DNA of 64,000 bases from assembly GCF_002934265.1 (NCBI RefSeq), contig NZ_PTIX01000023.1, positions 1 to 64,000 on the forward strand, in the 5' to 3' direction. How positions within the stretch are numbered: the first letter of the stretch is position 1; every line of letters begins with the position of its first letter. Origin of the DNA: Actinokineospora auranticolor. GTDB lineage: Bacteria > Actinomycetota > Actinomycetes > Mycobacteriales > Pseudonocardiaceae. Below, one piece after another: positions 3,011 to 55,475 of this stretch. The notes beneath the pieces were generated by a model that saw only the letters and a program-made list of their open reading frames with translations, was not told the DNA's origin and made no database searches. Position numbers and translations under genes: made by a program.

Positions 3011-3055
3011 CCTGTGGACAACTTCGGCGCATGTGCATGGGTGGTTGTCCACAGG
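3011..3055. repeat. inverted repeat made of two DnaA-box-like sequences
   Basis: CCTGTGGACAAC (3011-3022) and GTTGTCCACAGG (3044-3055) are perfect 12-bp inverted copies separated by 21 nt. Each contains TTGTCCACA, the preferred high-GC actinobacterial DnaA box. The arms could also form a hairpin after the monooxygenase operon, but no U-tract follows. The site lies in the 299-bp gap between the monooxygenase pair and the ATPase gene. Confidence 0.55.
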
Positions 3056-3163
3056 CTTGATCGTCTTCGCCGCGACTTGTCGGTGACCGCCAGTAAAGTG
3101 GATACCGGGGGCCGGAGGCGTGCCCCAGGTTTATCCGGGCCGGACATCCGGGCCGGTGGGCGA

Positions 3164-10472: not shown

Positions 10473-10870
10473 GGGTCTCCCATCAAGGGTCAAGGGTCGC
10501 GGTCGGTCCAGTCTATGCACCCGCGCCCGACCCCGACGCGCCCCGGCGGCCCTGGACCGGGATCGAGCCCGGCCGACGCTCGCTCGCGACGCGTTTCGAC
10601 ACGCGCGCCCGCACCTCGGGCCCGCGCCCGGAACCGGCAAGATCAAAACGGGTGGCGCGCGCCTCCGGCCCCCGATGACCATGCTACCGGCGGGTGCCGA
10701 CGGTCCGGGCCGATGATGATCAAGCCTGTGCACAGCTCCTGCCCTATCGGGTGGAGCCTGGCCGAGCGGTCGAGTTGTCCACAGGCCACTCGGTTGATCT
10801 TCCGGTTTCGTCGCCCCCGCCCGGTAGCGTGGATACCGGGGGCCGGAAGCATGCGTTGATCAACATGCGC
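10473..10870. other. 398-bp intergenic region with DnaA-box-like site and a 19-bp repeat
   Basis: No gene is supported here. CCTGTGCACAG (10725-10735) and TTGTCCACAGG (10775-10785) are spaced about 40 bp apart; the second contains a DnaA-box match. GTGGATACCGGGGGCCGGA (10829-10847) is identical to 3098-3116, which likewise lies about 50 bp beyond a TTGTCCACAGG. The region should contain the def promoter on the minus strand, but no clear -35/-10 pair could be assigned. Confidence 0.5.
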
Positions 10871-51094: not shown

Positions 51095-51217
51095 CCCTTC
51101 CACCGCAGTTCATCGGTAGCCGTTGGGCCCGACGGTCGGTTGGCGGATCCGTTGACCGGCGTCGGGCCCAAGCGCTCTCATGAGCGGCTGGTGTTCCGCA
51201 AGTCACTCGTTCGGGGC

Positions 51218-51259
51218 TGTGGACAACTTCGAGCGGCCCCGGCGGCCGCTCCGTAAAGT
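51218..51259 (+). promoter_or_regulatory. DnaA-box-like site and -10 for a leaderless aminotransferase mRNA
   Basis: TGTGGACAA (51218-51226) is a DnaA-box match on the minus strand. TAAAGT (51254-51259) is a -10-like hexamer ending 7 nt before the ATG at 51267, with no Shine-Dalgarno between, implying a leaderless transcript. The same TAAAGT occurs at 3094-3099, 40 bp after another such box. Confidence 0.4.
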
Positions 51260-51266
51260 CATCGAC

Positions 51267-52367
51267 ATGCCACTTCTCGATCGCACCCTGCTGGGCCCCG
51301 GACCGTCCAACCCCTACCCGGAGGCCACCGCCGCGCTGTCCGCTCCCCTGCTCGGCCACCTCGACCCGGAGTTCCTGCGCGTGCTCGACGAGACCTGCGC
51401 GCGGCTGCGGCGCGCGTGGGGCACGGAGAACGCGCGCACGCTGCCGCTGTCCGGCACGGGGTCGATCGGCATGGAGGCGGCGTTCGCCAACTTCGCGCGC
51501 CCGGGCGACGTGGTCGTCGTCGGGGTGAACGGGCTCTTCGGCGAGCGCATGGTCGAGGTGGCGGGCCGCTACGGGGCCGAGGTCGTGCGCGTCGACCACG
51601 ACTGGGGCACACCGGTCGACACCGAGCGGGTGCTGGCCGCGCACCCGGAGCCGTCGATGGTGGCCGCGGTGCACGCCGAGACTTCAACCGGGGTGCGCAG
51701 CGACATCCGGGAACTGGCGCTGGCGGTGCACAAGCGCGACGAGCGGGCTCTTGTGCTGGCGGACTGCGTGACCTCGCTGGCGGGCATCGAGGTAGCGATC
51801 GACGCGTGGGACGTCGACATCGCGTACTCGGGCACGCAGAAGTGCCTCGGCGTGGCACCGGGCCTCGCCCCGTTCACGGTGTCACCGCGCGCGTGGGACC
51901 GGCGGGTGCCGCGCCCGCCGACCTGGTACCTCGACCTCAACCTGATCGGCGCCTACGTCGACGGCTCCAGCGGCGGGCGCACCTACCACCACACGGCACC
52001 GGTCGCGATGATCACCTCCCTGCACGCCGCCCTGGGCCGGATCCTGGACGAGGGCCTGGAAGCGGTGTGGGAGCGCCACCAGGCAGCGGGCGCGCGGCTG
52101 CACGAGGGCCTGGCCGAGCTGGGCCTGTCCCTGTTCGCCGCGGAGGGCTATCGGCTTCCGGAACTGACGACCGTGCGGGTTCCGGAAGGGGTGGACTCGG
52201 CGAAGACCCGGGAAGCGCTGCTGACCGAGTACGGAATCGAGATCGGCGCGGGAGTCGGCGCCTTCGCGAGTTCGGTCTGGCGAATCGGGCTCATGGGCCA
52301 CAACGCCCGCCCCGACCGGGTCGAGTTAGTACTCGGCGCGCTGGGACGGGTGCTGGGGAGGAGGTGA
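51267..52367 (+). CDS. PLP-dependent aminotransferase (alanine-glyoxylate/serine-pyruvate type)
   Basis: A 366-aa class V aminotransferase. LLGPGPSNPYPEATAALSAP and LGHLDPEFLRVLDETCARLR are the AGT signature; LPLSGTGSIGMEAAFANFAR and VAAVHAETSTGVRSDIREL follow; the PLP-binding Lys is in IAYSGTQKCLGVAPGLAPF. It transfers amino groups between small oxo- and amino acids (glyoxylate, pyruvate, serine). The ATG at 51267 was preferred to an upstream start at 51180, because the sequence between reads as promoter. Not obviously part of the sulfur operon. Confidence 0.9.
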   Translation: MPLLDRTLLGPGPSNPYPEATAALSAPLLGHLDPEFLRVLDETCARLRRAWGTENARTLPLSGTGSIGMEAAFANFARPGDVVVVGVNGLFGERMVEVAGRYGAEVVRVDHDWGTPVDTERVLAAHPEPSMVAAVHAETSTGVRSDIRELALAVHKRDERALVLADCVTSLAGIEVAIDAWDVDIAYSGTQKCLGVAPGLAPFTVSPRAWDRRVPRPPTWYLDLNLIGAYVDGSSGGRTYHHTAPVAMITSLHAALGRILDEGLEAVWERHQAAGARLHEGLAELGLSLFAAEGYRLPELTTVRVPEGVDSAKTREALLTEYGIEIGAGVGAFASSVWRIGLMGHNARPDRVELVLGALGRVLGRR

Positions 52368-52799
52368 CGCCTTTGATGCCGAAGAAGTCGGGCGACGTCC
52401 GGAAGAGAGGTGAGTAGCGGGTTCGCCGAGGCTTGATGACGACTCCGACCGCAGAGCTCCTACCGCGCGGATATTGATTGCGGCAATGGTGGGGAACCGA
52501 GGCTTCCAGCTATCCCGCACCTGACCGCAACGCTCTCCTTGCCGGAAGGGGCCCGCGAGCCGGAACGCGTCACACCCGCACGCGGAACTCGTCCACCCTC
52601 AGTGCACCGCGCCATCGTCCTCGGCCAGCAAGGTGACCACCCGTGCCGCTACACCAGGCACGCGCCGCACCGGCAAGTCAGGGGCGGCAGGACTCCCGCT
52701 GGGTTGTGGGGCTGCGGTAGGGAGTCCGGTTGTGGCTGCGGCCAGGCTGTGGCAGGGAGTCCGATCTCCGGCTCGGGCTCCGGCTTCGGCTCCGGTCGC
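52368..52799. other. gene-free stretch after the aminotransferase gene
   Basis: About 430 bp with no convincing gene. A short frame from a GTG overlapping the aminotransferase stop reads VTPLMPKKSGDVRKRGE and ends at 52417; it is too short to judge. The last 100 bp (from about 52690) contain low-complexity GGGAGTCCG and CCGGCTCCGGCTT runs leading into the tandem array. Confidence 0.4.
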
Positions 52800-54290
52800 G
52801 GCACCAACCACCGCGGGAACTCCGGATCAAGCCGCGGCTGGGGCCACGGCGCTGGCTGCGGCCGGGCCCCTGCTTCAGCCCCACTCGACAAGGCTGCGGC
52901 TACGGGCGGGGAGCCTTGGCCCGGATCAAGCTACGGCTAGAGCCGCGGTCCCGGCTGCGTCGAGGAGTCCTGTTGTCACTCCGCTCGACGAAGGCGGGAC
53001 CCTGGCGGGGAAGGCAAGTCCGGACCAAGCCTCGGCTGGAGCCACGGCATCGGGTGCGGCCAGGAACCCTGCATAAGCTCCGCTCGACGAGGCCAAGACC
53101 ATGGCCGGAAGCCTGAATCCGAACCAAAGCGCAGCTGGAGCCACGGCGCTGGCTGCGGTCGGGCCCCTGCTTCAGCCCCACTCGACGAGGCTGCGGCTAC
53201 GACCGGGAGCCTCGTCCCAGCTCCGGCCACGGTCCCGGCTATGTCCAGGAACCCTGCCGCAATTCCACCCGACGAAGCCGAGATCATCGCCGATGGCCGA
53301 GTCCGGACCAAGCCACAGCTGGAGCCACGGCGCTGGCTGCCTCCAGGAGCCGTGCATAGGCTCCACTGATGAGGCTGCGACTGCGGCCGGGAGCCTTGGT
53401 CAGGTCAAGCCACGGTCCCGGCCGCCTCGAGGAGCCTTGCTTTCAGCCCCACTCGGCGAGGCTGCGGCTACGGCTGAGCGACCGGGTCCGGACCTGGTCG
53501 CACCTGGAGCTGCGGCGCTGGCTGCCTTCAGGAAACGTGCACAAGCTCCGCTCGACGAGGCCGAGACGACGGCCGGAAGCCTGAATCCGGACCAAGCCGC
53601 CGCTGGAGCCATAGTGCTGGCTGCCTATGGGAACTCTGCTCCAGCCCCACTCGACGAGGCTGCGGCTACGGCCGGGAGCCTTGGCCCAGATCAAGCCACG
53701 GGTGAAGTCACGATCCCGGCTGCGACCGGGAACCTCACTCCAGCCCTACTCGACGAGGCCAAGGCCATCGCCGAGAGCATGAGCCCGGACCAAGCCACGG
53801 CTAGAGCCGCGACGCCGGCTGCCTCCAAGAGCTCTGCTTCAGCTCTACTCGACGAGGCCGCGGCCATGGGCGGGGAGCCTTGGTCAGATCGAGCCACGGC
53901 TAGGGCCGTGGTCCCGGCTGCGTCGAGGAGCCCTGCTTGACTCCGCTCGACGGGGCCGAGCCCTGGCAGGGAACGCAACCACAACTAGAGCCACGGCGGT
54001 GGTGAGGCGGCGTCCAAGAGCCCTGCACAAGTTCCATTCAACGGGGCCAACACCATGGCCGGAAGCCTGAATCCGGACCAAGCCACGGCTGGAGCCACGG
54101 TCCGACTCCTTCCAGGAGCCTTGTTTAGCTCCACCCGACTGGGCCAAGTCCATCGCCGAGAGCCCGAGTCTGGACCAAGCCAGGCTGGAGCTGCGATCCC
54201 GGCTGTGGCCGGGAACCCCGCTCCAGCACCATTCCACGGGGCCGAGGTATGGCTTGGGAGGCCGGGTTCCGATCAAGTCGGCCTCACCTG
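52800..54290. repeat. degenerate tandem array, about 15 units with a 99-bp period
   Basis: The motif CTCGACGAGG and its variants recur at 52884, 52984, 53083, 53181, 53268, 53366, 53452, 53551, 53650, 53749, 53848, 53946, 54037, 54134 and 54232: spacings 86-100, mostly 98-99. The five units from 53452 to 53848 are exactly 99 bp apart and stay in one plus-strand frame, giving a 33-residue unit close to LDEAxAxAGSLxPDQA-x17. Flanking units carry stops and frameshifts. Codon third positions are clearly less GC-rich than in neighbouring genes. It looks like a decayed repeat-protein gene or a non-coding satellite-like array; the plus frame (53101-53940) is not called as a gene. Confidence 0.8.
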
Positions 54291-54529
54291 TCATCGACAG
54301 GCTTCTCGCACGTTCTCTTGATGTCTCCACCGATCGCGGCCGTCGACTGGCGGCTCAAGGTTCAACGCCGCGGTCGGTGCGGGAAAGCCGAAGTGGGGTC
54401 GTCCGCGCTGTCGTCCGGGTTCTGGCCCGTGCCTCGAGTGCGCGGCGACGAATCCAGGTCTGGTGCCGCCAGAGCCGGCCGCCGTGGGAAGCGGTGGTAC
54501 GGGCTGAGGTGTTGGCCTGGTCGGGTGGG

Positions 54530-55393
54530 TCAGGTGGTTTTCAGGTCGGGGGTTTCGGGGGTGAGAAGGTCGGCGGCGGATGGTGCGGTTTGGGGGTTCA
54601 GGCGGTCGCGGCGGGCTTGGAGCATGATCGAGATCGCGTAGGGGACGAGGTCCTGGCCTCGGCGCCAGAGCCAGGGGATGCCCTTGATGATGAGCCACGC
54701 CACGTGGGCCAGGGGGCCTGCCTGGAGGCCGCCCTCGCAAGTGAGGCTGACCGGTGTGGGGATCGCGCATCCCTTGTGGGCCAGGATTTCCGCGAATCCC
54801 TTGGCCAGCATCCGGTGGCCCAGTTCCGACGGGTGCAGGCGGTCGACGCTCCACGTCGTCGTCTGGTAGGCGCCGGGGAGGGTGTCCAGGTTCAGGTAGG
54901 GGGCGCCGGTTTCGGCGGACACCGCATCGATCACGGCGTTGAGGCGGTCGATGCGGTCGCGGAGGGCCCTGCGGAGGGACTCCGGCATGCGGAAGACCTT
55001 GCCGTGGTCGTGGTAGCGCACCAGCACGACCACGGTGCCCGCGGCGTGCAGGCTGTTCACGGTGTGCGTCAGGTCCGCGCGCATCGCCGACGGGTCGAAG
55101 TCCGAGCGGAGGGTGTCGTTCATCCCCGCGATCAGGATGGCGGCGTCCGGTTGGGTGTTGAGCACCTCGGGTAACTGGGTGCCCCGGACGTCGGCGAGGC
55201 GGGCGCCGGGCGCCGACACGTTGCGCACGGCGGCGCCCAGGGCGGCGCCGAGCAGCGGGCCGACGCCGCGCCAGCCGCCGCCCGGGAGGGGGTCGCCGAG
55301 GCCCACCGACGTGGAGTCGCCGAGGACTGCCAGGGTGCGGGCGGTCCACGTCGGATGCTCGACAGCGTTGCGTTCGAATCCCACCGCGGTCAC
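54530..55393 (-). CDS. SGNH/GDSL-family hydrolase
   Basis: About 287 aa with all family blocks: block I LAVLGDSTSVGLGD (Ser nucleophile near residue 27), block II glycine region in VSAPGARLADVRGTQ, block III LIAGMNDTLRSDF and block V VDRLHPSELGHRML (catalytic Asp and His). No signal peptide is evident, so it may be a cytoplasmic esterase or acyl hydrolase. The C-terminal third (ISIMLQARRDRLNPQTAPSA) is extra. The GTG at 55393 follows AAGGTTGAG; a GTG at 55414 is possible. Substrate unknown. Confidence 0.85.
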   Translation of the reverse strand: MTAVGFERNAVEHPTWTARTLAVLGDSTSVGLGDPLPGGGWRGVGPLLGAALGAAVRNVSAPGARLADVRGTQLPEVLNTQPDAAILIAGMNDTLRSDFDPSAMRADLTHTVNSLHAAGTVVVLVRYHDHGKVFRMPESLRRALRDRIDRLNAVIDAVSAETGAPYLNLDTLPGAYQTTTWSVDRLHPSELGHRMLAKGFAEILAHKGCAIPTPVSLTCEGGLQAGPLAHVAWLIIKGIPWLWRRGQDLVPYAISIMLQARRDRLNPQTAPSAADLLTPETPDLKTT

Positions 55394-55475
55394 GGGCTCA
55401 ACCTTGCGGCGCACAGGCTCACCGGCGGTGAGGACCCGGTGTCCGCACGGGGACGGACCGGAGAAGTCTTCGGTG

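Follow-up and report, generated by a model that had tools for sequence, protein, structure and literature searches.

A degenerate, probably non-coding 99-bp tandem array at a gene-order junction in Actinokineospora auranticolor

A tandem array between converging genes

The window analysed is a 64,000-nucleotide stretch of Actinokineospora auranticolor DNA (contig NZ_PTIX01000023.1, positions 1 to 64,000). In it, a class-V aminotransferase gene on the forward strand (51219–52367; Pfam PF00266 and gene order) and a GDSL/SGNH hydrolase gene on the reverse strand (54530–55414; Pfam PF13472 and PF00657) converge on an intergenic gap of 2162 bp (52368–54529). The aminotransferase ORF opens at 51180, the start at 51219 being the call of a rough gene finder. 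Using TRF and a profile HMM, we delimited a degenerate tandem array in this gap at 52820–54279, with a unit of ~99 bp, 15 units and a preceding part unit; it is described on the forward strand, the orientation being arbitrary. Since both genes point toward the array and stop short of it, the array is not an extension of either neighbour.

The TRF span was 52821–54277 (15.1 copies), and the profile matches extended over 52820–54279. The 15 full units span 52881–54279 and start at 52881, 52981, 53080, 53178, 53265, 53362, 53449, 53548, 53647, 53746, 53845, 53943, 54034, 54131, and 54229, giving successive spacings of 100, 99, 98, 87, 97, 87, 99, 99, 99, 99, 98, 91, 97, and 98 bp. The intervals thus range from 87 to 100 bp; 11 of the 14 fall within 97–100 bp and five are exactly 99 bp. 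The existence of the ~15-unit array, as put forward in the original prediction, was borne out by tandem-repeat analysis, in which the TRF score under lax settings was 1230 against at most 140 across 200 first-order Markov shuffles of the gap, and by self-comparison, in which the lag-99 match over 52600–54400 was 0.412 (mean 0.286 and sd 0.019 for lags 10–899). Under default settings, TRF broke the array into pieces scoring 307–421. A CTCCGG run lies at its left edge (TRF), and CTCGACGAGG is present six times at 53083–53848.

The five in-frame core units, the ~12-bp deletions, and the small indels were likewise present as first described. The core (53449–53942, forward strand) consists of five units that share a frame and are separated by four intervals of exactly 99 bp; this reading frame is open for 163 codons (53449–53937). 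The start of the array required a slight shift upstream, to include a worn part unit at 52820–52879 (forward strand, profile search). A doubtful trace of a further worn unit lies on the same strand at 52744–52803 (profile 8.5 bits, E 0.82); a covariance model placed it at 52745–52805 (17.6 bits, E 0.027).

The unit profile (99 positions) was built from 14 units and scored on those same units, which gave 50–75 bits for units 1–5 and 67–80 bits for units 7–11. The weak full units were those carrying deletions (units 4, 6, and 12, with 50, 48, and 36 bits); the outermost part units reached 34.5 and 10.9 bits. Apart from these, the scores showed no gradient from the middle to the ends. The original description of the array as decayed at both ends therefore holds for the reading frame and fails for the sequence; only in the middle do the units share an unbroken frame.

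A profile search of the own genome returned the array locus and three single matches with E 0.016 or worse. The array was missing from the 15 congeners in the same kind of search. It was also not found in the sampled 297 genomes of the family, 397 of the order, and 396 of the phylum, sets that partly overlap and each include the own genome; the order and phylum samples were searched at E 1e-6, and in searches over more than 40 genomes the stricter filters, with few candidates scored per genome, could let a very diverged relative escape. Of the 296 other genomes of the family, 77 gave single weak profile matches at E 0.01 or better, the best having E 7.9e-6 (G006) and the next 5.8e-5. None of the 35 weak-match loci inspected (L070–L082 and L084–L105) had matches about 99 bp apart or formed an array, and their lag-99 z values were at most 2.2, against 4.6–4.7 for the window array. 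The array was present in 0 of 72 loci around the aminotransferase in named genomes. The exact pattern of one unit matched nothing in a genome-contig collection from which the own genome may be missing. Four short matches inside the array (31–51 bp, 78–90% identical, E 7.8e-4 to 8.7e-4) and matches of 25–62 bp in the CTCCGG-rich DNA of its left edge, all to other genomes, were taken for chance.

The lack of any relative in the sampled genomes would suit an assembly artefact or a recent import by phage or plasmid, to both of which we give almost no credence. The array lies inside a contig of 109,596 bp, and its 14 fullest units all differ (pairwise p-distance 0.17–0.51, mean 0.34), so that one copy cannot have been multiplied, as the artefact envisaged at the outset would imply. 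As to import, neither the DNA nor the core protein matched any phage or plasmid record, and the GC content of the gap is 0.686, compared with 0.683 in sampled intergenic DNA of the genome.

Reading frame of the array and of a repeat-protein gene

The unit length corresponds to 33 codons, and one of the options raised originally was a dying repeat-protein gene. According to this explanation, the locus would be a pseudogene that once encoded a disordered Ala/Pro/Asp-rich protein of 33-residue repeats, whose units diverged while coding and then acquired frameshifts and stops. Besides the period, the five core units open in one frame and the shared phase of 10 of the 15 unit starts are in its favour, and just seven frame-breaking length changes would have been needed after decay. 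However, the openness of the frame says little because the unit consensus is open in five of the six frames. Among the nine intervals that differ from 99 bp, two differ by multiples of three, which is about the chance expectation, and seven break the frame. No frame is open over more than 59% of the array, whereas a repeat protein calls for one frame running through. The longest ORF (279 aa) was equalled in length by 22% of shuffles.

Homology searches also argue against a decayed gene. No Pfam family was found in two array ORFs, and the search with the core protein gave no convincing match: in the 297 family genomes, its one hit outside the own genome was weak (E 1.6e-4, 35% identity) and contained a stop. 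No intact relative, and hence no unbroken version of the gene, was found in the sampled genomes by the DNA profile, nor by the core protein in the family genomes, plasmids, and phages. The Ka/Ks comparison gave a median core-unit dN/dS of 0.82 in the core frame, not below two other frames (0.54 and 0.69), though the remaining three were higher (0.89–1.36). The codon-position entropy of the array was 0.70/0.74/0.79 (p 0.65), in a test of low power in which a coding control also lacked a third-position excess. Entropy, flat codon-position GC, and dN/dS were initially counted against coding and later dropped as arguments, the first two because the control repeat gene would fail both as well.

This control is a 63-bp array in the same genome (G000:C4:252794–253807, G000 being the genome of the window), which encodes 21-residue repeats before a GGDEF domain. 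The GGDEF protein (L210:12196–15621, equivalent to G000:C4:252196–255621; also L303–L311) has a long N-terminal region of such repeats (TSRGTSGAP...). The 63-bp core pattern occurs in 9 of 16 genus genomes at one locus each, with a single stray match in addition in G005, where the repeat locus is syntenic. Across the nine genomes, all 112 intervals were multiples of three when two anchors 492 and 592 bp upstream were dropped (113 of 114 with these far leading anchors kept). Every interval that differed from 63 bp stayed in frame (70/70), and the frame was open in 9/9 genomes. It continued into the GGDEF domain in both cases examined, the genome of the window and L311. The codon-position GC of the control repeat is flat, which hides the gene from codon-usage gene finding.

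The two arrays are alike in being degenerate and GC-rich, in unit similarity (65% for the GGDEF repeat region and 64% for the window array, TRF), and in flat codon-position GC. In contrast to the window array, the GGDEF repeat region has kept its frame, is open throughout, is shared by 9 of 16 genomes of the genus with a single locus in each, and is joined in frame to a GGDEF domain in the cases examined. Since a genuine repeat gene in this genome is equally flat, which may also be held in favour of a former gene here, flat codon-position GC is not an argument against coding. In GC-rich DNA, a period of 33 codons that is open does not testify to a gene, and real repeat genes fail tests of codon usage. 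With two of nine changed intervals in frame and no intact relative in the genomes sampled, we consider a decayed repeat-protein gene unlikely and the array most likely non-coding.

Intergenic arrays in the genus and known repeat systems

The original prediction held the array to be unlike anything else in the window. This is correct within the window; elsewhere in the genome there are other, unrelated degenerate arrays. We surveyed 1.25 Mb of the own genome and 0.4 Mb of each of three congeners (2.4 Mb), taking gaps of at least 150 bp between predicted genes; the gene finder was rough, and at least one real coding repeat escaped it. The census yielded 36 arrays with a TRF score of at least 150, compared with 4 when the gaps were shuffled once. 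Unrelated degenerate intergenic arrays were present in all four of the genomes sampled, most often between converging genes. The units of arrays scoring at least 250 had, a few exceptions aside, no match elsewhere in the sample. Consensus lengths were divisible by three in 17 of the 36 arrays, against 12 expected by chance, and given this excess part of the class may be coding.

The counts by gap type include the window array and leave out one CRISPR-like array and two coding GGDEF repeats. Arrays scoring at least 150 were seen in 15 of the 107 convergent gaps, in 16 of the 335 co-directional ones, and in 2 of the 196 divergent ones (convergent versus divergent, p 5.6e-6). At a score of at least 250, there were 6 convergent, 9 co-directional, and 2 divergent cases, a weaker excess (6/107 versus 2/196, p 0.025). 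Convergent gaps were longer on average (576 vs 384 bp), and the excess persisted per base. In 0.62 Mb of other taxa, mostly actinobacteria (L119–L177), seven arrays reached a score of 150, or 11.3 per Mb; this lies inside the range of the four congeners (10.4–25.0 per Mb), so that at this score no richness specific to the genus is apparent. At scores of 250 and 400, the densities were 4.8 versus 5.6–15.0 and 1.6 versus 2.5–12.5 per Mb, respectively, from few arrays. The broader notion that Actinokineospora keeps growing lineage-specific satellite-like arrays in convergent gaps, where they would be retained for buffering colliding transcription and of which the window array would be the highest-scoring case in the 2.4 Mb surveyed, strikes us as very unlikely.

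The window array lies between converging genes, the type of gap in which the four sampled genomes most often carry arrays. This location could also point to a functional non-coding element, either a series of protein-binding sites or a buffer that terminates the converging transcripts or keeps them apart. Three terminator-like sites were observed against 0.9 expected, which agrees with such a role, and no promoter-like sites were found. Against it, the unit contains no conserved sub-motif: the windowed column entropy was not below that of permuted columns (p_min 0.17–0.79, windows 6–18). Some sub-regions were more variable than permuted columns (p_max 0.02–0.05 for windows of 6, 9, and 12; 0.34 for 18), which counts against the non-coding reading favoured here. 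No structured RNA was found, either as a conserved fold or as a known family. No Rfam family reached its curated score in the array, the folding of five units was weak (z −0.85 to −2.53 on the plus and −1.97 to +1.26 on the minus strand), and the consensus structure of the units comprised 8 pairs with a covariation term of −0.14. Nothing similar occurs at the same place in the 12 congeners with the gene pair. A function of this kind thus appears quite improbable.

The survey also revealed dispersed repeats. An element of ~90 bp (G005:C4:274568–274819; G000:C2:304631–304719, C17:37770–37858, and C4:296861–296949) is 91–94% identical between two species and occurs several times in the portion of the genome surveyed. 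Another, of ~75 bp and containing TTGTCCACA, occurs in tandem once and otherwise singly (G000:C2:139638–140006; window positions 3044–3119 and 10661–10734); we take it to recall the leader of DUF222/HNH genes. An apparent CRISPR array at L205:6128–6518 (G000:C4:146128–146518) has a repeat like GGTCCCCGCGCACGCGGGGATGGTCC, presumably type I-E-like, and similar DNA is found in L123.

CRISPR arrays combine near-identical short repeats with unrelated spacers, whereas in the window array the similarity runs across the whole 99-bp unit. In mycobacteria, MIRU/VNTR loci consist of intergenic tandem units of ~50–100 bp in a GC-rich actinobacterium, and MIRUs belong to one dispersed family whose copies are few and almost identical. 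The window array shares the intergenic tandem arrangement and the GC-rich actinobacterial host, but stands alone and consists of strongly diverged units.

A closer likeness is to the prokaryotic satellites of Subirana and Messeguer (2019), defined as at least 4 tandem units of 10–200 nt (PMC6749651). The filters given there require at least 4 copies of some decamer within 800 nt and an identical length in at least 60% of the repeats (PMC6749651). The window array agrees with that description in unit length, copy number, and decamer content, and is unique in sequence and intergenic (PMC6749651). It differs in that 5 of its 14 intervals have the modal length, below 60%, a proportion reached by the core units only (PMC6749651). 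Because of this shortfall in equal-length repeats, we call the array satellite-like and not a catalogued satellite. The same paper describes long non-coding tandem arrays as uncommon in compact bacterial genomes, and some genomes as having scattered long-unit arrays that are mutually unrelated and partly non-coding, which the window array resembles (PMC6749651). It also reports transposed satellite families in Leptospira interrogans, whereas the window array has no related array elsewhere in its genome (PMC6749651).

Gene order and origin of the array

Orthologs of the hydrolase were identified in 12 of the 15 other genus genomes (63–76% identity), and the remaining three have remote relatives only. 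In 12/12 of these congeners, the hydrolase gene lies directly upstream of the aminotransferase gene, adjacent and on the same strand. The order in G003 (with extra DNA), G005, G009, G011, and G015 is FMN reductase (+), zinc dehydrogenase (−), aminotransferase (−), and hydrolase (−), compared with FMN reductase (+), aminotransferase (+), array, and hydrolase (−) in the window. A whole-genome search of the own genome found no zinc-dehydrogenase ortholog, the best match being 38% identical, against 74–84% DNA identity among the relatives. Judging from gene order, the aminotransferase was most likely inverted in the own lineage, with the array at the new junction. The end of homology would place the left junction at 51095–51186, between the FMN-reductase and aminotransferase genes, and the right one within the gap at 52368–54529. 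This gap has no significant similarity to the DNA beside the aminotransferase in relatives, the closest of the 15 congeners being 85% identical in the aminotransferase gene. The recombination hotspot considered in the original prediction is thus upheld insofar as the array sits at a gene-order junction unique to the own genome among those compared; either of the two may have come first.

The most similar pair of units is 83% alike, and departures from the unit consensus are mostly transitions. Two unit subtypes (A and B) differ at seven columns. The mean identity of units at lags 5 and 10 was 0.703, compared with 0.63–0.68 at lags 1–4, 6–9, and 11; this five-unit period gave a permutation p of 0.004 (0.016 allowing for the choice among periods 2–6), values that are soft since the subtypes and the period were seen before testing. 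The period suggests that the array grew through duplication of blocks of about five units. The mean unit divergence of 0.34 is slightly lower than the divergence of the aminotransferase from the 15 congeners at four-fold sites (0.39–0.51), a rough comparison as such sites are subject to codon bias. Birth of the array within the own Actinokineospora lineage fits these figures, and because it is possible on them, the absence elsewhere would need no import. Of the three options first proposed, an expanding non-coding array is the best supported, with the amendment that the array is old and, with its closest units 83% alike, not visibly expanding.

We therefore favour, at a probability of about 70%, a non-coding, degenerate, satellite-like array that was born in the own lineage, probably together with a local rearrangement or following it. 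In that rearrangement, the aminotransferase would have been inverted, perhaps together with its dehydrogenase neighbour, which would have been lost afterwards. The inversion would have left a gap flanked by two 3' gene ends and free of any promoter in need of protection, in which a stretch of ~99 bp may have been duplicated head to tail via slippage or unequal exchange. Later duplication would have proceeded in multi-unit blocks, as the five-unit period suggests, and the copies may since have drifted without constraint through substitutions and small indels. The array is real, old, and probably non-coding, and its position at a lineage-specific rearrangement junction makes it an instructive case of what is yet ordinary genome drift. 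Tied to a lineage-specific change in gene order and comparable with a true repeat gene from its own genome, it offers a clean example of how such repeat DNA may arise, expand in blocks, and fade.

The possibility that the array descends from the lost dehydrogenase was considered and found no support: the best tblastn match had E 0.07, and the best blastn match of the whole region (E 0.002 over 22–27 bp) fell outside the dehydrogenase gene. In the left flank of the array, a 72-bp scrap (52604–52675) is 86% identical to C14:178872–178943 of the own genome, with weaker matches in congeners. Its minus strand reads RRVPGVAARVVTLLAEDDGAVH followed by a stop, and reads like the end of a gene with a frameshift.

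Other species also vary at this locus. In G006, only scraps of the zinc dehydrogenase remain between the aminotransferase and FMN reductase (L042:8911–9362), the same gene having been lost in another species. In Actinokineospora fastidiosa (G001; L117 and L050), the hydrolase and aminotransferase together oppose the neighbouring gene, which differs from the other compared congeners and represents a different rearrangement at the same place.
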